The translations under genes were made by a program, and so were the position numbers. 44,534 bases of DNA, from contig JANSYR010000027.1 of assembly GCA_024742285.1 (NCBI GenBank), positions 1 through 44,534 on the forward strand, written 5' to 3'. Numbering within the stretch: position 1 is the first letter of the stretch; the number at the start of each line of letters is the position of its first letter. Positions 35,953 to 44,534 of the stretch are shown here, piece after piece. A model generated the notes under the pieces. That model was not told where the DNA came from, searched no databases, and worked only from the letters and a program-made list of their open reading frames with translations. Source of the DNA: a bacterium (GTDB taxonomy: Bacteria > Myxococcota_A > UBA9160 > UBA4427).

Positions 35953-37292
35953 GCACGATCCTCAAGGCGCTGCGACGACTCGAAGAAGACCAGCCCGCCG
36001 AGCCGGAACCCGCCGCGAACACGACGGACGCGGCCGCCGCCGCCTCGAGCACGGACGACCTCCGCGGTCGCATCCTCGCCGAAGAGCGGGCGAATCAGCT
36101 CGTCCGCGAGGCCGCTCGCGACGCCGCCGTACCCGACGTGGACGCCGCCGAGCCCAGCGACTCGATGCCCGCGCCGCTGCTTCGTCACGCGCCGCTGGCC
36201 GCGGCCGGGCTGGTCGCGCTCGTGATCGGTGTGATGGTGATCCCCGCGCTCCTCGATTCGACCGAAGCGCCGGCGCCGACCGGTTCGGAAGAAACGGTCT
36301 CCGTCGCTCGCGCGCCCGTGGCCTCCCCGGCACCGGCGGATCCGCCGCCCCGCGCCGAAGGGCCGGACCGGCCCGCGACCGCCGCGCGCGCCGTCCAGGA
36401 CGAAACGGAGGCCCGAGCGGCGACCCAGGCGGAAGTCGAAGCGGAGGCCGACGCTCGCGCCGCTGCCGACGCGCGAAGAGCCGCCACCACGGCGGCGACT
36501 CGAACCACTTCCGCCGGCGCCGGCGCCGCCGCGACCGCGGTCGCCGTCGCGGCCGCCGATTCCGCCGCGGCGGACGCGTCCTCGAGCCGTGTCCCGGCGC
36601 CGAAGCCGAGCCGTGTGGCACGAGCCGAGGGCGTCGCCGTCGCCGATCTCCCGGTCGCCGCGCCGCCGAGCCCGGCCCGCGCGGAGCCCACCCCGCCGCC
36701 GAGCCCGGCCCGCGCGGAGCCCACCCCGCCGCCGAGCCCGGCCCGCGCCGAACCCACCCCGCCGCGCGCCACCCGGACCTCCGAGCCGCCCGTCGAGCTC
36801 GCGCTCGTCGAGCCGACCCGGACTCCGAAGCCCGCCCGGCCGCCCACGACCTCGCGCGCCACGCCGAAGCCCTCCGCGTCGGCCCCGAGCGCGTCCGCTC
36901 CCGCACCGAAGCGAGCCCTCCCGCCGCCGCCAAAGCAGGTCGACCGCGCGAGCGTGCGGCCCGCGGCCGGCCCGCCCCCGGTGGCCCGCGAGCGCTCCGC
37001 CCGCGATCCGATCGCCTCCGACGATCGGCCGGTCGCGAAGACCACCGACGCGAAGCCGATCGAGCGCGTCACCCGCCCCGACGTGCCCGACGTGACCGTC
37101 CTCCGCACTTCCTGGCATCCCGACACCACCCGCCGCTCCGCCCGCATCCGCGTCGAAGCGAGCAAAGAGGTCATGACCCTCCAAGAGGGCGACGCGATCG
37201 GCGCCCTCGTGGTCAAGGAGATCACCCCCTCCGCCGTCCTCTTCGAAGCCGGCGAAGTCGAGCTCCGCCGCCGGGTCGGGAAGGGGAGCTAG
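35949..37292 (+). CDS. gspB: GspB-like type II secretion accessory protein
   Basis: A 447-residue protein. The N-terminus MSTILKALRRLEEDQ is the typical GspB/ExeB cytoplasmic start. One membrane helix lies around residues 79-99 (HAPLAAAGLVALVIGVMVIPALL), then a very long Ala/Pro/Arg-rich periplasmic linker, and a C-terminal GspB domain (TSWHPDTTRRSARIRVEASKEVMTLQEGDAIGALVVKEITPSAVLFEAGEVEL). The linker includes three 33-bp DNA tandem repeats (PPSPARAEPTP). It partners GspA in secretin assembly. It overlaps gspA by 4 bases. The rest of the type II secretion genes are not in the window. Confidence 0.83.
   Translation: MSTILKALRRLEEDQPAEPEPAANTTDAAAAASSTDDLRGRILAEERANQLVREAARDAAVPDVDAAEPSDSMPAPLLRHAPLAAAGLVALVIGVMVIPALLDSTEAPAPTGSEETVSVARAPVASPAPADPPPRAEGPDRPATAARAVQDETEARAATQAEVEAEADARAAADARRAATTAATRTTSAGAGAAATAVAVAAADSAAADASSSRVPAPKPSRVARAEGVAVADLPVAAPPSPARAEPTPPPSPARAEPTPPPSPARAEPTPPRATRTSEPPVELALVEPTRTPKPARPPTTSRATPKPSASAPSASAPAPKRALPPPPKQVDRASVRPAAGPPPVARERSARDPIASDDRPVAKTTDAKPIERVTRPDVPDVTVLRTSWHPDTTRRSARIRVEASKEVMTLQEGDAIGALVVKEITPSAVLFEAGEVELRRRVGKGS
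36662..36760 (+). repeat. 33-bp tandem repeat (three copies)
   Basis: Three near-identical 33-bp units encoding PPSPARAEPTP within the gspB-like linker. Copies 1 and 2 are almost identical and copy 3 differs at a few third positions, pointing to recent slippage. Confidence 0.8.
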
Positions 37293-37352: not shown

Positions 37353-38420
37353 CTAGCGCCGCCCTCCGCCCCCGAAGCGATCCGCCGGACTGCGCACCCC
37401 TCGTCCTCCGCGATTGAGCACGTGGGTGTAGATCATCGTCGTGTTCACGCTCCGATGGCCGAGCAGCTCCTGGACCGTCCGGATGTCGTAGCCGGATTCG
37501 AGGAGCGCGGTCGCGAAGCTGTGCCGGAACGTGTGCGGAGTGACCCGCTTCGTGATCCCCGCCTCCGCTGCCGCCCGCTTCACGTGGCGCTGGACCGTCG
37601 TCTCGAACACGTGATGACGCCCGATCCGCCCCGTCCGCGGACAAGCGGACCGCGCCTCCGCAGGGAACACGTACTGCCACCCGGGCTCGAAGCCGGCCCG
37701 CGGATACTTCCGCGCGAGCGCATCCGGCAGCTCCGCCTCCCCGAACCCCTCCGCGAGGTCGGCCCGATGGAGCTTCTTCGAAGCGAGGATCCGAGCCCGA
37801 AGTGGCTCCACCGCCCGATCCGGCAACACCGTCAGCCGATCCCGCCGCCCCTTCCCGTCCCGAATCCGAAGCTCCCGCCGAGCGAAGTCCACGTCATGGA
37901 TCCTCAGCCGAAGCGCCTCCAACAGTCGCAATCCGCCTCCCCACAAGAGCAGCGCGATACACCACGAATCCCCCTCGAGATCCGCGATCACCGCCTCCGC
38001 CTCCTCCGGCGTCAGCACCACGGGCAACCGCGCTGGCCGCCGTGCTCGAACCATCCCGGACAGATCCCCGATCTCGCGACGAATCACGTAGCGATAGAGA
38101 AAGAGGATCGCGTTCAGCGCCTGGTTCTGCGTACTCGCCGCGACGTCTCGATCCATCGCCAGATGCGAAAGAAACGCCTCGATCTCCGCCCGCCCGAGAT
38201 CCTTCGGATGGCGCAGCGCATGGAACCGGATGAACCGCTTCACCCAGTCGACATAGGATCGCTCCGTCGCCCGAGAGCGATGGCGCAGCCGGAGCTGCTC
38301 GCGAAGCTGATCAAGGAGACGGGGCGGGCGGCGGCCGGCGCCGGCAGATTCCCGTCGGCTCGTTTCACGATCGCTCTCCGATCCTCCGGAATCGAGATCC
38401 TCAATCGGAAACCGCACCAT
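37353..38420 (-). CDS. intI: Integron integrase IntI
   Basis: A 355-residue tyrosine recombinase. Catalytic residues appear complete: R165 (GGGLRLLEAL), K190 (GKGRRDR), H296-x-x-R299 (TPHTFRHS), H322 (LLGHRS) and Y331 (MIYTH). The IntI-specific insertion is unmistakable (DLAEGFGEAELPDALARKYP followed by GFEPGWQYVFPA), which separates integron integrases from XerC/D. It cuts and joins the bottom strand of folded attC at attI. The core starts around residue 30, so an N-terminal extension of about 30 residues is present from the ATG at 38420. A TTG at 38486 would add 22 residues. It is transcribed away from the cassette array, the usual layout. A GAAC-N4-GTTC box lies 72 bases upstream. Confidence 0.92.
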   Translation of the reverse strand: MVRFPIEDLDSGGSESDRETSRRESAGAGRRPPRLLDQLREQLRLRHRSRATERSYVDWVKRFIRFHALRHPKDLGRAEIEAFLSHLAMDRDVAASTQNQALNAILFLYRYVIRREIGDLSGMVRARRPARLPVVLTPEEAEAVIADLEGDSWCIALLLWGGGLRLLEALRLRIHDVDFARRELRIRDGKGRRDRLTVLPDRAVEPLRARILASKKLHRADLAEGFGEAELPDALARKYPRAGFEPGWQYVFPAEARSACPRTGRIGRHHVFETTVQRHVKRAAAEAGITKRVTPHTFRHSFATALLESGYDIRTVQELLGHRSVNTTMIYTHVLNRGGRGVRSPADRFGGGGRR

Positions 38421-38491
38421 TCGTTCGCCCCACCGAAGTCCAAGACCTGCCCGAATCGATGTACTCGACCCGGTCCCGCGCGCCAACTCAT

Positions 38492-38700: not shown

Positions 38701-38729
38701 GCGGCTGTCAGGTTACTAACTAGTTATGC
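38701..38729 (+). other. attI recombination site (first cassette junction)
   Basis: Inverted integrase-binding cores TACTAAC (38714-38720) and GTTATGC (38723-38729) with two bases between match the paired L and R simple sites of known attI. The crossover is expected after G38723. Everything to the right is cassette DNA. The first cassette therefore starts at 38724 with TTATGCGGC, which pairs with the GCCGCATAA at the start of its own attC (39035). Confidence 0.75.
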
Positions 38730-38761
38730 GGCATCTCCTGGCGGAGAGCTTGAGACTCTCG

Positions 38762-39034: not shown

Positions 39035-39216
39035 GCCGCATAACAAGCCGCTGCACCTGACAGACAGTTGGCCGAGGTAGGAGTGGGCTCCGCCGCCCAG
39101 ATCCACGTCCCTTCGGGACGCGGAAGGCGGCTCTAGCCGATTGGCTACGATCTGAGTCTCTCGATCGGTACGGCGCCAGCGAAGTCTGCAGGTGATCGGC
39201 TGATCCGTTATACGGC
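39035..39216 (+). repeat. attC site 1
   Basis: R'' GCCGCATAAC (39035) to R' GTTATACGGC (39207-39216), with L'' AGCCGCTGCACCTGACAG and L' CTGCAGGTGATCGGCT pairing inside. The central hairpin has arms CGTCCC/GGGACG. R'' differs from the standard GTATAAC exactly as needed to pair with the first cassette's own 5' end. Confidence 0.9.
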
Positions 39217-39224
39217 AGACGCGA

Positions 39225-39617
39225 TTGAGCTGTATTCGCGCCCTCGCACTTCTCGGTTGCGTGTTCGGCCTTGCCTGCGCAGGTCTGTCACCCTCCTCGG
39301 CTGAACCTGACTCGAGCGTCCAAGTGTCTGCCCCAGAGTGCCCAGTTTTTCTGTTCGCGTTTCCGCGAAGAATTCCCGAAGGTGCGATCTGCGAAGGGCG
39401 TCGGGTTCGAGTGATTCCGTCGAGCGGCGCGCCTACCTATTGGGGGTGCTACTCCCGCGAGGCTCTGGCCCACTATTGCGATCCCGGACTCCCGGAGGAG
39501 ACTAACCACTGCCTGGCGGCTTCTCTGGTCTACGACGTCTGCGAGGCGCGAAGCGTCGAGATCCTGGACGATCTCGGAGGCACGATCGGTGACGTCGGTG
39601 AGCCGCGGCCCAACTAG
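39225..39617 (+). CDS. Cassette 2: predicted lipoprotein, cysteine-rich
   Basis: A 130-residue protein starting at TTG close to the cassette's 5' end. The N-terminus (SCIRALALLGCVFGLACAGL) is a short lipoprotein-type signal with LLGC or LAC as possible lipobox. The mature part has at least six further cysteines (CPVFLF, AICEGR, YWGCYS, HYCDPG, NHCLAA, YDVCEA), suggesting a disulfide-rich envelope protein. No known family recognised. It is followed by attC site 2. Confidence 0.55.
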   Translation: MSCIRALALLGCVFGLACAGLSPSSAEPDSSVQVSAPECPVFLFAFPRRIPEGAICEGRRVRVIPSSGAPTYWGCYSREALAHYCDPGLPEETNHCLAASLVYDVCEARSVEILDDLGGTIGDVGEPRPN

Positions 39618-39644
39618 ACGGGGATCCGAGTTCGCCCGGCGCCC

Positions 39645-39818
39645 GCCGTATAACAAGCCCCTGAACCTGACAGACAGTTAGCCGAGGTTGGAGCGGGGCT
39701 CCGCGGCCTCCTGACGCTTCGCGTCCAAGGCCGCTCGTGCCGCTGGGCTACGATCGCCGTACCTCGACCAGTCCACGCCGGCGAAGTCTGCAGGTTATGG
39801 GCTGATCCGTTATACGGC
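39645..39818 (+). repeat. attC site 2
   Basis: R'' GCCGTATAAC and R' GTTATACGGC, 174 bp. L'' AAGCCCCTGAACCTGACAG pairs with L' CTGCAGGTTATGGGCT. The central variable hairpin is GACGC-TTC-GCGTC inside GCGGCCT/AGGCCGC. Confidence 0.93.
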
Positions 39819-39826
39819 ATGTCTCG

Positions 39827-40174
39827 ATGCGCCTAGCTATCGCGATTCTTAGTCTGGTGTTGCTGAGCTGCGAAGTCGTAGACGTTGCTCGATGCAACGG
39901 ATGTATCTCGGAAGCCATGCAGGACAGTATGGACTTGCTGGCGACGGGCAGCGTCGAGTTGATGATGCTGACACTCGCGCTCGACGAGCTTCGCGAGGGC
40001 GAAACCCAGGAGGCTATCTGCTCGCTCGAGCTCATCTTAGATGGCGAGCTGAATCAAGCGGAATCGATGCTCTCGAATGACTTGTCGGACGCCGCTCGGG
40101 AATCGCTGGAGGGGCGACTTGAGATTGCGCGCGAATACCGGGCGCGACATCCCAAGGAGTCCTCGGGTTGCTGA
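39827..40174 (+). CDS. Cassette 3: small predicted lipoprotein
   Basis: A 115-residue protein starting at ATG 39827, 8 bases after the R' core. The signal MRLAIAILSLVLLSC carries a clear lipobox (VLLSC, cysteine at residue 15). The mature part is helical and acidic (ALDELREGETQEAICSLELILDGELNQAESML) with cysteines near the start (DVARCNGC). Probably anchored in an envelope membrane. No function recognised. Confidence 0.65.
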   Translation: MRLAIAILSLVLLSCEVVDVARCNGCISEAMQDSMDLLATGSVELMMLTLALDELREGETQEAICSLELILDGELNQAESMLSNDLSDAARESLEGRLEIAREYRARHPKESSGC

Positions 40175-40200
40175 TTTGATCCTGGCGGTACCGCGGACAC

Positions 40201-40374
40201 GCCGTATAACAAGCCCCTGAACCTGACAGACAGTTGGCCGAGTTGGGAACGGGGCTCCGCGGCCTCCTGACCCTTCGGGTCCAAGGCCGCTCGTGCCGCT
40301 GGGCTACGCTCGCCGTACCTCGATCAGTCCGCGCCGGCGAGGTCTGCAGGTTATGGGCTGATCCGTTATACGGC
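40201..40374 (+). repeat. attC site 3
   Basis: 174 bp, R'' GCCGTATAAC, R' GTTATACGGC. The central hairpin is GACCC-TTC-GGGTC, a compensatory change relative to GACGC/GCGTC in sites 2, 5, 6 and 7. Confidence 0.93.
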
Positions 40375-40391
40375 CGCGAACGGCTTCTGCT

Positions 40392-40790
40392 ATGGCGATC
40401 GACATTCGACTGATGAAGCCGCGGCCGGACGCCGATCAAGAGCGGTCGTCGATGTCGCTTGAGAACGAGGCCCACTACTGGTTTCTCTGGCCCCTGATCG
40501 ACGCGCTCCGGGCAAGCCACGGAAAGTACGTTGATCTCTACGGAGACGTGGCGTTCCGTAGCTCAGAGTTGCCCCTACTTGAGAAGCTGATCTCGGACTG
40601 CAAGGCCCGGTTGGCTTCCAGCCCGCCCGAGTGGCAACAGCACTGCGGCGTCTCGCTCGCTGGCTCGACCAAGACGATCCATTCCCAGCTTGTTCGGAGA
40701 GGAGATCTTGAACTCTGGCTCGAGAAGCTCGCTTCTCTGGTCGAACTCGCGAGAGAGGTGGGTTCGGGTGTCGAATTTTCAGGCGACTAA
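40392..40790 (+). CDS. Cassette 4: unknown soluble protein, family shared with cassette 6
   Basis: A 132-residue soluble protein (ATG 40392). Its C-terminal two-thirds align with cassette 6: SDCKARLASSPPEWQQHCG against NSLYEELSSARPEWRVQLG, then WLEKLASLVELARE against FLRESISICETARE, separated by similar spacing. This marks a shared, diverged cassette-borne family. There is no signal peptide or membrane segment. Function unknown. It ends just before attC site 4. Confidence 0.65.
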   Translation: MAIDIRLMKPRPDADQERSSMSLENEAHYWFLWPLIDALRASHGKYVDLYGDVAFRSSELPLLEKLISDCKARLASSPPEWQQHCGVSLAGSTKTIHSQLVRRGDLELWLEKLASLVELAREVGSGVEFSGD

Positions 40791-40799
40791 GTATTCGCC

Positions 40800-40974
40800 G
40801 CCGTATAACAAGCCCCTGAACCTGACAGACAGTTGGCCGAGTTGGGAACGGTGCTCCGCGGCCCCCTGGCGCTTCGCGCCCAAGTCCGCTCGTGCCGATT
40901 GGCTAAGATCGCCGTACCTCGATCAGCCCGACGCCGGCGAAGTCTGCAGGTTATGGGCTGATCCGTTATACGGC
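40800..40974 (+). repeat. attC site 4
   Basis: 175 bp. The central hairpin is GGCGC-TTC-GCGCC, again compensatory relative to the others. R''/R' cores standard. Confidence 0.93.
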
Positions 40975-41004
40975 AGACCCCGCGCCGGCCGCCCGGGAGG
41001 TCGT

Positions 41005-41439
41005 GTGCGAACTCGACGGATTCTCTTGTGGATCCTAGGTGTCGTTCTTACCGTTTCTCTCTTGCTTTTCGGCGCCTTCGTACTTCTCGCTCCGGCGTGC
41101 GAATGTGACTCGCGAGGAGCGCAAGCCGCCCGTGAGATCCCGCAAGCGAGACTCGCTCGGCTCTTCGACGATGTTCGCCGACTTGGCCCAATGAATCGCA
41201 ACCTACGCGAGAACGAAATTCCGGCCGAGTTCTCTGATCTCGGCGTGATTGCCGTTCGCGGAGCAATCTATCCACCTGGCCAAGTCAATCTCAGGCTTGT
41301 GGGGTGTCTCGACCACTTTCTCGATCTGGTCGTGTATGGCGCCGACGCTGCGGTCAGAGACGGGCCCCGGATCTCGTTGTGGTGCGGCGAACCGCCGACC
41401 GATGGCGTTGAGGTTCTCTGGCGCCCTGATGTCGAATAA
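41005..41439 (+). CDS. Cassette 5: signal-anchored protein, unknown
   Basis: A 144-residue protein from GTG 41005, with GGGAGG 4 bases upstream. The N-terminal anchor is RTRRILLWILGVVLTVSLLLFGAFVLLAPAC. The rest is soluble (FDDVRRLGPMNRNLRENEIPAEFSDLGVIAVRGAIYPPGQVNLRLVG) with a DHFLDLVVYGADAAVRDGPRISLWCGEPP segment. Probably exported and membrane-anchored. No family recognised. A longer in-frame ATG upstream (40690) would cross an attC and cassette boundary, so it is excluded. Confidence 0.6.
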   Translation: MRTRRILLWILGVVLTVSLLLFGAFVLLAPACECDSRGAQAAREIPQARLARLFDDVRRLGPMNRNLRENEIPAEFSDLGVIAVRGAIYPPGQVNLRLVGCLDHFLDLVVYGADAAVRDGPRISLWCGEPPTDGVEVLWRPDVE

Positions 41440-41454
41440 CTCGTGGCGTCGTCC

Positions 41455-41628
41455 GCCGTATAACAAGCCCCTGAACCTGACAGACAGTTTGCGGAGTTCG
41501 GAACGGGGCTCCGCGGCCTCCTGACGCTTCGCGTCCAAGGCCGCTCGTGCTGATTGGCTACGATCGCCGTACCTCGATCAGTCCGCGCCGGCGAGGTCTG
41601 CAGGTTATGGGCTGATCCGTTATACGGC
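41455..41628 (+). repeat. attC site 5
   Basis: 174 bp, standard cores. Central hairpin GACGC-TTC-GCGTC, identical in type to sites 2, 6 and 7. Confidence 0.93.
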
Positions 41629-41647
41629 AGATCTAGTTGCGTCGAGC

Positions 41648-42070
41648 ATGACCGGGTGGAGCTTTCTCGTATTCGAGGCTGACGAACCGAATGCAACCTT
41701 GGTGGATGGCGCGCCTTCCGCGTGTCTTCGATCCAAGGGCGCCGCGCGGTTTCTAGAAAAGAGGCTCGACTACCTGTACTCCGAGGTTGGCTTCGGGATA
41801 TCCGAGAGCGACGACGCCTGCACGAATGACCCTGCCGTTCTGGCCGCCGTGATCCTGGGTTTGAACTCGCTGTACGAGGAGCTCTCCTCGGCTCGACCTG
41901 AGTGGCGCGTTCAACTCGGCTACGAATTTCGACCCGGCGAAGAGCTCGGGCCGCCGATCTACGCGCAAGCCTCGCGCGACGAAATCCGCCAGTTCCTTAG
42001 AGAGTCGATCTCGATCTGCGAGACTGCTCGCGAGAACGCCGCCTATCTGGTTTGGGGCGGCGGCGCGTAG
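41648..42070 (+). CDS. Cassette 6: unknown soluble protein, homologue of cassette 4 product
   Basis: A 140-residue protein (ATG 41648) with no signal peptide. It shares the PEW-centred motif and the terminal D-x-x-x-x-L/F-L-x-x-x-x-x-x-x-x-ARE motif with the cassette 4 protein. Sequence identity is low elsewhere, so the two are old relatives rather than a recent cassette duplication. Function unknown. Confidence 0.65.
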   Translation: MTGWSFLVFEADEPNATLVDGAPSACLRSKGAARFLEKRLDYLYSEVGFGISESDDACTNDPAVLAAVILGLNSLYEELSSARPEWRVQLGYEFRPGEELGPPIYAQASRDEIRQFLRESISICETARENAAYLVWGGGA

Positions 42071-42074
42071 ATCC

Positions 42075-42248
42075 GCCGTATAACAAGCCCCTGAACCTGA
42101 CAGACAGTTGGCCGAGGTTGGAGTGGTGCTCCGCGGCCTCCTGACGCTTCGCGTCCAAGGCCGCTTGTGCTGCTGGGCTACGATCGCCATACCTCGATCA
42201 GCCCGTGCCGGCGAAGTCTGCAGGTTATGGGCTGATCCGTTATACGGC
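42075..42248 (+). repeat. attC site 6
   Basis: 174 bp, standard cores GCCGTATAAC and GTTATACGGC; central hairpin GACGC-TTC-GCGTC. Confidence 0.93.
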
Positions 42249-42256
42249 AGACGCGG

Positions 42257-42598
42257 ATGAATGCGCTGACAGACGCTGAGGTCGAACAGCTTTTTTGGTC
42301 CGACGCAGACTTCCTCGGCTACTACTGGGACGATCGCTTCGACGATCCAACCCTGGTTGTGCGCGTCACCCCTGCAAACGCCGAGACAGTCGAGCTGGTA
42401 TGCCATTGGACGATGGGGCTTAAGCTCGACGTCGACTACAAGACAAGCGTGAACGGTCTCCTTACCTGGCAGGTCGAATTCGAGCCGATGCCTGAGCGCC
42501 GCTGGAGGGTGGTGTTCGATCTCGCCTCGCATGGATCGGTCGAATTTGAGTGCCTCGGACTGTCGCTACGACCGCCTGCGCCAGTGTCCGCCGTATAA
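42257..42598 (+). CDS. Cassette 7: unknown small soluble protein
   Basis: A 113-residue acidic protein (ATG 42257) with no signal. The pattern of alternating beta strands (PTLVVRVTPANAETVELVCHWTMGLKLDVDY, LTWQVEFEPMPERRWRVVFDLA, SVEFECLGLSLR) suggests an all-beta or alpha+beta domain resembling small immunity-type proteins, but no family is recognised. The stop codon TAA is formed by the R'' core of attC site 7 (GTATAAC), so the attC supplies the translation stop. Confidence 0.6.
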   Translation: MNALTDAEVEQLFWSDADFLGYYWDDRFDDPTLVVRVTPANAETVELVCHWTMGLKLDVDYKTSVNGLLTWQVEFEPMPERRWRVVFDLASHGSVEFECLGLSLRPPAPVSAV

Positions 42599-42763
42599 CA
42601 AGCCCCTGAACCTGACAGACAGTTGGCCGAGGTTGGAGCGGGGCTCCGCGGCCTCCTGACGCTTCGCGTCCGAGGCCGCTCGTGCCGTTGGGCTACGATC
42701 GCCGTACCTCGATCAGGCCTGGCCGGCGAAGTCTGCAGGTTATGGGCTGATCCGTTATACGGC
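42590..42763 (+). repeat. attC site 7
   Basis: 174 bp, standard cores; central hairpin GACGC-TTC-GCGTC. R'' overlaps the end of the cassette 7 gene. Confidence 0.93.
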
Positions 42764-43039
42764 ATGCCCGGGCAGCTTCTAGGAATCGGGGGCTCTTCCA
42801 TCTTGCTCGGAACTTCCGCGACTATCTCCGCGGTAGAAGCCCCCTCGCGGCCCCCCGACACGAGCCGCCGACGGGGCAGGCTGAGGCTTTTGCTCTCGGC
42901 CGTCGCCGCGCTTCTTCTCTTCTCCTGCGCGGACGAAGTCGACCGGTGTCTGGATCGCGGCGGATGCTGGGTCTCCGGAGCTGAAGTCTGCGAGATGGCC
43001 GATCAGGCTCGCTGCGACGAGTCTCGATCGGCGCGCTGA
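42764..43039 (+). CDS. Cassette 8: small cysteine-rich lipoprotein
   Basis: A 91-residue protein from ATG 42764, which directly follows the attC core. A ~30-residue head precedes a signal RRRGRLRLLLSAVAALLLFSC with lipobox LFSC. The mature part is only ~35 residues with cysteines in CADEVDRCLDRGGC and VCEMADQARC. The true start may be further downstream (the head is unusually long). Probably an envelope lipoprotein. It resembles cassette 3 only in being a short cysteine-bearing lipoprotein. Confidence 0.5.
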   Translation: MPGQLLGIGGSSILLGTSATISAVEAPSRPPDTSRRRGRLRLLLSAVAALLLFSCADEVDRCLDRGGCWVSGAEVCEMADQARCDESRSAR

Positions 43040-43059
43040 TCGTACGCCCTCGCGAGCAC

Positions 43060-43235
43060 GCCGTATAACAAGCCGCTGCACCTGACGGAGAGTTGGCCGA
43101 GTTCCGATCGGAAGTCCGCGGCCTCCTGGCCCTTCGGGCCCAAGGCCGCTCGAGGCGCTGGGCTACGCTGCGTCGTACCTCGATCGAGTCGACGCCGGCG
43201 AGCTCCGCAGGTGAGCGGCTGATCCGTTATACGGC
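43060..43235 (+). repeat. attC site 8
   Basis: 176 bp. L'' AAGCCGCTGCACCTGACG and L' CCGCAGGTGAGCGGCT show compensatory variation; central hairpin GGCCC-TTC-GGGCC. Confidence 0.92.
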
Positions 43236-43567
43236 GCTCCCCCGCGACTTCGAAGAAGGCGGGTTTCTGCCGCGCGGGCGACGGTCGCTGTTGGGCGCCT
43301 CGAAGACTCGCCGTCCGGGGCTTGAGAGTTCGAGCCTGAATGCGGCTTGGTGGTCCACTCTGCGTGGCCTGGTTGGCCTTGATATCCAGGCGAAGCCCGT
43401 CTCGACCGTCGCTTGCTCGAGACGACTCGTTGGCTTCGGTTGTCCGAGACGCCCGGCTGAATCTGCCTCGCGTTGGTCGACCCGCAGGCCGGCCGCTTCC
43501 GATCGGAAGCAGGCTCCGAATAGGGACTCGGCCAATCGGACTCCGAGCCTCGATGTTGCGCCGTCGC
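43236..43567. other. Cassette 9: no convincing gene
   Basis: The ~330 bases between attC 8 and attC 9 have open frames on both strands. The best plus-strand one (43340-43576) gives an arginine/leucine-rich product ending in the attC core, and minus-strand frames cross attC sites. None shows signal, domain or codon use supporting a gene. It may be an ORF-less cassette or carry a regulatory RNA. Confidence 0.45.
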
Positions 43568-43748
43568 GCCGTATAACAAGCCGCTGAACCGGACGAGGAG
43601 TTGGCCTTGCGTTGCCCTGGCTCCGCCAGGCAAACTTCCCGCTGAGAGCGGGAAGAACCTGGCTCTTGCCGTCTGGCGACGGCCCCTGAACTTGACTCGG
43701 ATCGCCTGCGGCGAACCTCGCCGGTTAGCGGCTGATCCGTTATACGGC
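43568..43748 (+). repeat. attC site 9
   Basis: 181 bp, cores GCCGTATAAC and GTTATACGGC. The interior differs from the others, with hairpins CTTCCCGCT-GAG-AGCGGGAAG and TTGCCCTGG...CCAGGCAA. Confidence 0.88.
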
Positions 43749-44088
43749 ACGCGACTGAAAGCGGTCTCTACCTCTGGCTGCTGCTGTCTCCGAGTCTCCG
43801 TTGAGCTCGCCGCCGATTGGCGGAGGCTTTGAGGATGGAGCTTGGAGCGACCTCCGCCGACTGCCATCACCTGACGGTGACTGTCGGCTTGTGCAGTCTG
43901 GCGACGGGCTTCGAAGTCTCGAAGTGACTCGAGAGGCGAGGGCGGCTGCCTTACTGTCGCCGCCGTCCGATCCGAAACGATCCGTGTCTAGACGAGACGC
44001 TGGAGGGCGAGCCGCCGATATCCTCGGGACTTCAGGAGATGCGGTGGCGAAGGCCTCGGACGACCTCGCCGCGACTCTGCCGTCGCGC
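43749..44088. other. Cassette 10: no convincing gene
   Basis: The only plus-strand frame of note runs from a TTG at 43801 to the R'' core at 44097 (98 codons, low-complexity Ser/Arg/Asp product, MSSPPIGGGFEDG start). No signal, domain or good Shine-Dalgarno is seen, so it is left uncalled. Confidence 0.4.
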
Positions 44089-44272
44089 GCCGTATAACAA
44101 GCCCCTGAACCTGACAGGGCGCTTGCCGAGACGTGAGCGGCCTCCGCCGCTCAGACTCTTCGCCTTAGTCGGCGAAGAGAAAGCGGCTCGAGTACTCTGG
44201 CGACGAACCTGATCGGCTCGACCAGGCGACGATGGCGTCCCCTGCAGGTTATGGGCTGATCCGTTAGACGGC
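44089..44272 (+). repeat. attC site 10
   Basis: 184 bp. R'' GCCGTATAAC but R' GTTAGACGGC; interior hairpin CTCTTCGCC...GGCGAAGAG. The changed R' belongs to the next cassette's 5' end. Confidence 0.9.
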
Positions 44273-44284
44273 AGGTCTATCGCC

Positions 44285-44534
44285 GTGCCTGAGACGCGAC
44301 CAATCGGAGTTCGAGTCTTCGCCTTCGCTTTGGGCGGCTATTCGCTCTTGGTCTTCCTGATCCTGATCGCGGGAGTTGTCTCCGCAGAGCAGATCGTTTC
44401 CTATCCGATTCTTGTTCTCGATCTCGTGCTCGTCACGTTCGGACTGCTCGGCGCTCGATCGATCTACTCCCTCTGGCCTCATTCGAAGTGGCTGTTTCTA
44501 GGCTGGCTCTTGTCTTTCTTCCTGATCGGCCTCG
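44285..44534 (+). CDS. Cassette 11: multi-pass membrane protein (partial, runs off window)
   Basis: From GTG 44285 the frame is open to the window edge (83 codons seen). The product begins PETRPIGVRVFAFALGGYSL and has at least three hydrophobic segments (SLLVFLILIAGVV, PILVLDLVLVTFGLLGA, WLFLGWLLSFFLIGL), so it is an integral membrane protein. It has no known relatives that can be named from this fragment. The 3' end and its attC lie beyond the window. Confidence 0.55.
   Translation, partial: MPETRPIGVRVFAFALGGYSLLVFLILIAGVVSAEQIVSYPILVLDLVLVTFGLLGARSIYSLWPHSKWLFLGWLLSFFLIGL

Follow-up and report, generated by a model that had tools for sequence, protein, structure and literature searches.

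The attC sites of the cassette array described here keep their base pairs by covariation at the tip, in the L stem and in the outer part of the hairpin, and their outermost stem matches the opposite end of their own cassette, not the neighbour in the array. Selection for attC sites that can fold is probably the explanation of this pairing. That attC structure is kept while the sequence varies is established knowledge, and paired mutations that keep base pairing are expected for attC sites. Taxon-specific attC covariance models combine sequence and structure, attC detection being based on a fold that stays conserved while the sequence varies (PMC8352920).

The window, a stretch of 44,534 nucleotides, is contig C27 of a 6.55 Mb genome in 56 contigs and holds the head of a sedentary chromosomal integron with its array of cassettes. 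A profile search with TIGR02249 identified the integrase with 438.5 bits (cut-off 265) over profile positions 1–314 of 315. The protein was aligned over 313 residues to the V. cholerae integron integrase 2a3v, and the HTFRH...GH...IYTH motifs are present there. With the catalytic residues and the integron-specific insert both found, IntI is an integron-type tyrosine recombinase. The predicted attI core, GTTATGCGGC, adjoins intI, which is directed away from it, and lies at the start of cassette 1; it is complementary to R'' of attC site 1, GCCGCATAAC, at 10 of 10 positions. Ten cassettes follow in one direction with one attC apiece. Nine cassette proteins searched against Pfam gave no match, and no Rfam family matched the window. 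The features are as follows.

37353–38486, minus strand: intI, intact integron integrase gene, 377 aa (TIGR02249 and alignment to 2a3v)
38723–38732, plus strand: predicted attI core GTTATGCGGC, read directly; all that comes after its first G belongs to cassette 1
39035–39216, plus strand: attC site 1, tip CGTCCC-TTC-GGGACG at 39106–39120; attC lineage other than that of sites 2–8
39645–39818, plus strand: attC site 2, tip GACGC-TTC-GCGTC at 39713–39725
40201–40374, plus strand: attC site 3, tip GACCC-TTC-GGGTC at 40269–40281
40800–40974, plus strand: attC site 4, tip GGCGC-TTC-GCGCC at 40868–40880
41455–41628, plus strand: attC site 5, tip GACGC-TTC-GCGTC at 41523–41535
42075–42248, plus strand: attC site 6, tip GACGC-TTC-GCGTC at 42143–42155
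42590–42763, plus strand: attC site 7, tip GACGC-TTC-GCGTC at 42658–42670
43060–43235, plus strand: attC site 8, tip GGCCC-TTC-GGGCC at 43128–43140
43568–43748, plus strand: attC site 9, 9-bp tip CTTCCCGCT-GAG-AGCGGGAAG at 43635–43655, bottom loop CTC; different attC lineage
44089–44272, plus strand: attC site 10, 9-bp tip CTCTTCGCC-TTAGTC-GGCGAAGAG at 44156–44179, bottom loop GACTAA; different attC lineage

The sites measure 174–184 nt from GCCG to CGGC and 168–178 nt from R'' to R'. As originally predicted, the inner stems around TTC in sites 1 to 8 pair perfectly, site by site, and the hairpins of sites 9 and 10 are unrelated to those of the other sites yet perfectly paired. The R''/R' boxes GTATAAC/GTTATAC are complementary and retain AAC/GTT, but each box deviates at one position from the RYYYAAC/GTTRRRY consensus: R'' has an A in place of a Y, matched by a T in R'. 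Predicted folds of the bottom strands, together with covariation, display an unpaired GATC central spacer, extrahelical T and G and a terminal structure. The R''/L''/L'/R' layout, the unpaired central spacer and the extrahelical bases are shared with the VCR-type attC sites (59-base elements) of V. cholerae, as are the branched variable terminal structure, the head-to-tail cassettes, IntI and attI with VCR-type chromosomal integrons. Classified attC sites have a quoted size range of 57–141 bp (PMC3053210). Measured from R'' to R', the sites exceed this range, which is not a strict criterion, and we still place them among attC sites because IntI, attI and layout fit. The attC sites of class 1 resistance cassettes differ in being single unbranched hairpins of 60 nt, unlike the long branched sites of this array. 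In class 1 sites (aadA1, aadB, qacL), GAA closes a G+C stem at the tip of the bottom strand (CGCCGC-GAA-GCGGCG), and most sites analysed here share this loop. The array is well supported as ordinary attC biology; the matching of cassette ends is the stronger result, and the loop bias is worth testing.

For comparative analysis, 76 attC sites were collected from three genomes: the window and contigs C1, C9 and C30 of the same genome, a member of the same genus (JAUIMK010000099.1) and the JANSYS bin.58 MAG. The sample covers one attC type in three genomes, all sites being of shared ancestry and the assemblies drafts. Bottom strands of 66 of the 76 sites were aligned. As possible outgroups, a Vibrio integron and the surroundings of most other integrases from the genus gave no usable attC array in the stretches fetched; the exception was a single distant site (G007, L055), likewise with a GAA loop at its tip.

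Pair-keeping changes of the tip were counted on a tree that excluded the hairpin and R-box columns, with independently evolving columns as the null. In sites 2 to 8 of the window, none of 35 tip cells was unpaired, whereas the null gave 8.2 on average (p=0.0013). Double pair-keeping changes numbered about 3–4 against a null mean of 0.17 and a maximum of 2 in 3000. The evidence from the window by itself is thin because only two pairs of the shared hairpin vary, pair 2 (A-T/G-C) and pair 4 (G-C/C-G). All four combinations of both pairs are present, each fully paired, which takes a minimum of three double changes. In the larger set of 29 intact sites of the common type from the three genomes, from which nine sites of another hairpin type were left out, there were 11 double pair-keeping changes against 0.43 expected (null maximum 3), five of them at pair 4. 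Only one single-sided tip change was found, 1 of 145 tip cells was unpaired, and the intact tips had no G.T intermediates. The central-hairpin substitutions are compensatory far beyond chance, and the covariance test on which the original prediction could have failed revealed an excess instead.

Covariation extends beyond the tip. RNAalifold calculated a consensus fold of 32 pairs for the 66 bottom strands, 14 of them with two-sided changes. In the L stem and outer hairpin (21 pairs, 66 sites), 96.3% of the cells were paired as compared with 86.2% in shuffled alignments and at most 43% when partners were slid. Cells changed on both sides numbered 121 against 36.6 in shuffles, a value reached in 0 of 500. 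Three sites (bin58b_4, bin58c_9 and bin58c_6) carry unrelated whole hairpins on a common, constant attC backbone. Paired changes, however, cannot show that a single strand folds, or which one, because complementary arms are strand-neutral. The original prediction had taken the tip pairs as direct evidence that the folded single strand is under selection; compensation is confirmed, while the strand, single-strand folding and selection as the sole cause were overstated. Strand and stage find better support in the loop bias, in the R-box match and in the way damaged sites decay than in tip pairing.

The geometry of cassettes was reportedly described long ago by Stokes, Hall and colleagues. A cassette begins with the first T of one R' and ends with the G of the following one; its own attC is the one formed in the circle (PMC2674596). 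What the original prediction had missed is that the outermost stem has its partner at the cassette's own start and not within the array. R'' matched R' at the start of its own cassette at 10 of 10 positions in 41 of 65 cases, compared with 22 of 65 for the neighbouring R' in the array; permutation gave a mean of 20 own-start matches and a maximum of 32 in 100,000. At the variable R-box position of the 49 intact cassettes, pairing with the own start was found in 48 and with the adjacent R' of the array in 26. This position, position 5, combined with the own start as T-A in 34 cassettes, C-G in 14 and A-A in one. The association was strong with the own start (Fisher over T/C cassettes, p=2e-12) and absent with the array neighbour (p=0.51), and position 5 switched 11 times by parsimony on the attC tree. 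Such a match would be predicted if pairing is important in the circular form of the cassette. As far as the integron literature could be searched, no count of this matching was found. R-stem matching is thereby a clean test, set by nature, of the stage at which attC pairing is important, and fits integration of the free circle.

An ATG lies within the G-type R' box GTTATGC (38723–38732), and cassette 1 and three others start an open frame there. A start codon as the cause of the A/G polymorphism of R' was rejected, as a frame open over most of the cassette was present in only 4 of 18 G-type cassettes; in most others, the frame from the ATG closes within 37 codons.

Evidence on the strand came from the loops. 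Of 56 intact sites, 48 have a bottom-strand loop with G as its first and A as its last base, as do 21 of 29 distinct tips, the loop limits of nine tips having been set by hand from predicted folds. These loops occur in three lengths (GAA and GGA; GTCA and GTTA; six-nucleotide loops), and exceptions include site 9 (CTC). The mirror type with T..C on the bottom strand was found in 0 of the 29 distinct tip types of intact sites, although 21 to 0 does not amount to 21 independent trials because tip types share ancestry. The bottom strand was predicted to be the more stable one in 42 of 49 cases (p=1e-7). Wobble asymmetry in intact sites (13 bottom-strand G.T versus 6 A.C events) had the right direction but was not significant and is only suggestive as a strand test. 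DNA hairpins of the d(GCGAAGC)/GNA type are extraordinarily stable and are used in published work; in the literature searched, GCGAAGC turned up in no paper on integrons. The G..A bias of the loops offers a simple clue to the choice of strand, and one that can be tested. A joint proposal, which we regard as possible but rather unlikely, would be that unusually stable GNA/GNNA DNA loop caps help to choose the folding strand beyond extrahelical bases and central spacer, and that both cassette ends switch in a concerted step, the arms co-evolving almost without intermediates.

Sites with damaged R boxes served as a natural control. Unpaired stem cells amounted to 10.8% in damaged-R sites versus 2.9% in intact sites (p=2e-8), and unpaired tip cells to 4 of 55 versus 1 of 120 (p=0.03) by an objective split, in damage classes that partly track array position. 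A hand-made split gave a sharper difference in the tip (4 of 30 versus 1 of 145), the objective split being more trustworthy. When each site was compared with its nearest intact relative, the ratio of double to single changes was 11:1 versus 8:3, which is not significant. The R-stem match also fades in damaged sites. Several attC arrays with damaged R boxes, in L013 and distally in L009 and L010, have no integrase visible nearby and look like decaying arrays; in the C1 and C9 arrays, decay becomes more marked with distance from the intact end.

According to the favored explanation, the attC bottom strand would fold into a long branched hairpin that IntI recognizes through its shape. A mutation in one arm would be retained when the other arm matches, and matching arms would be kept because an unfoldable attC cannot recombine, so that its cassette loses mobility. 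Selection presumably acts via IntI recombination, and the R-box match would be needed when a free circular cassette offers its attC to attI. The second arm might change by an ordinary second mutation followed by selection; alternatively, hairpin-templated repair, a template switch or an exchange of hairpins might alter it in one concerted step, whose product selection would then retain. A concerted step is possible because the intact tips lack G.T pairs and have many G-C/C-G swaps.

Carried further, a concerted step could make the tip changes mutational altogether, by template switching, hairpin-templated repair or whole-hairpin swaps, with selection on the tip weak or absent. Template switching is documented to homogenize the arms of inverted repeats without selection (PMC8604942), and the predominance of double over single changes in intact tips (11 to 1, with no G.T intermediates), the five doubles at the G-C/C-G pair, for which no wobble route exists, and the unrelated hairpins on a common backbone in the three bin.58 sites would all agree with it. 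The same process also inverts spacers (PMC8604942), yet intact sites have no T..C bottom loop, and one-sided mismatches build up in damaged sites. Copying between arms in the array predicts a match with the adjacent R' (26 of 49) rather than with the own start (48 of 49), and fails to explain the R-box match because both partners lie a whole gene apart. We therefore consider a purely mutational origin improbable.

Maintenance of the hairpins as RNA stems for translation control or termination is conceivable insofar as cassettes and attC sites are co-directional and the transcribed top-strand sequence could fold. It would favor top-strand G.U, corresponding to bottom-strand A.C, but bottom-strand G.T is the commoner type in intact sites (13 versus 6). 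The top-strand loops are UUC, UCC or UGAC, whereas the GNA/GNNA kind sits on the bottom strand, and R-box matching across a whole gene is left without explanation, which makes a function as RNA very improbable. Incidental pairing in a few hairpin haplotypes inherited by shared ancestry, or chance, would agree with the identical tip in 4 of 7 shared-type window sites. Four fully paired combinations requiring at least three double changes speak against it, a single crossover within the loop would disrupt the pairing, and the tree-aware null was rejected; this reading is already refuted and has next to no probability.

The window ends within the array. Its final 141 bases (44394–44534) recur unchanged at the end of contig C1 (L009:14837–14977), a contig with a further 19 attC sites. 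Because of this identity, the two contigs are probably neighbors in the assembly graph, the array continuing in C1. If so, cassette 11 would combine R' GTTAGAC with R'' GTATAAC, with one mismatch; this ambiguous joint was left out of the counts. The start of cassette 11 (44273–44534) is 97.7% identical to the end of L025 from the bin.58 MAG, which suggests recent cassette exchange or close kinship. Cassettes 9 (43236–43567) and 10 (43749–44088) have no clear gene. Relatives of cassette 9 with 76–87% identity are found in bin.58 (L020, L031) and on contig C30 (L012), and one relative of cassette 10 with 83% identity on contig C9 (L010); judged by these similarities, both possibly belong to a spreading family of ORF-less cassettes. 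Upstream of the integron, three 33-bp direct repeats (36658–36765) lie in a proline/alanine-rich coding stretch.
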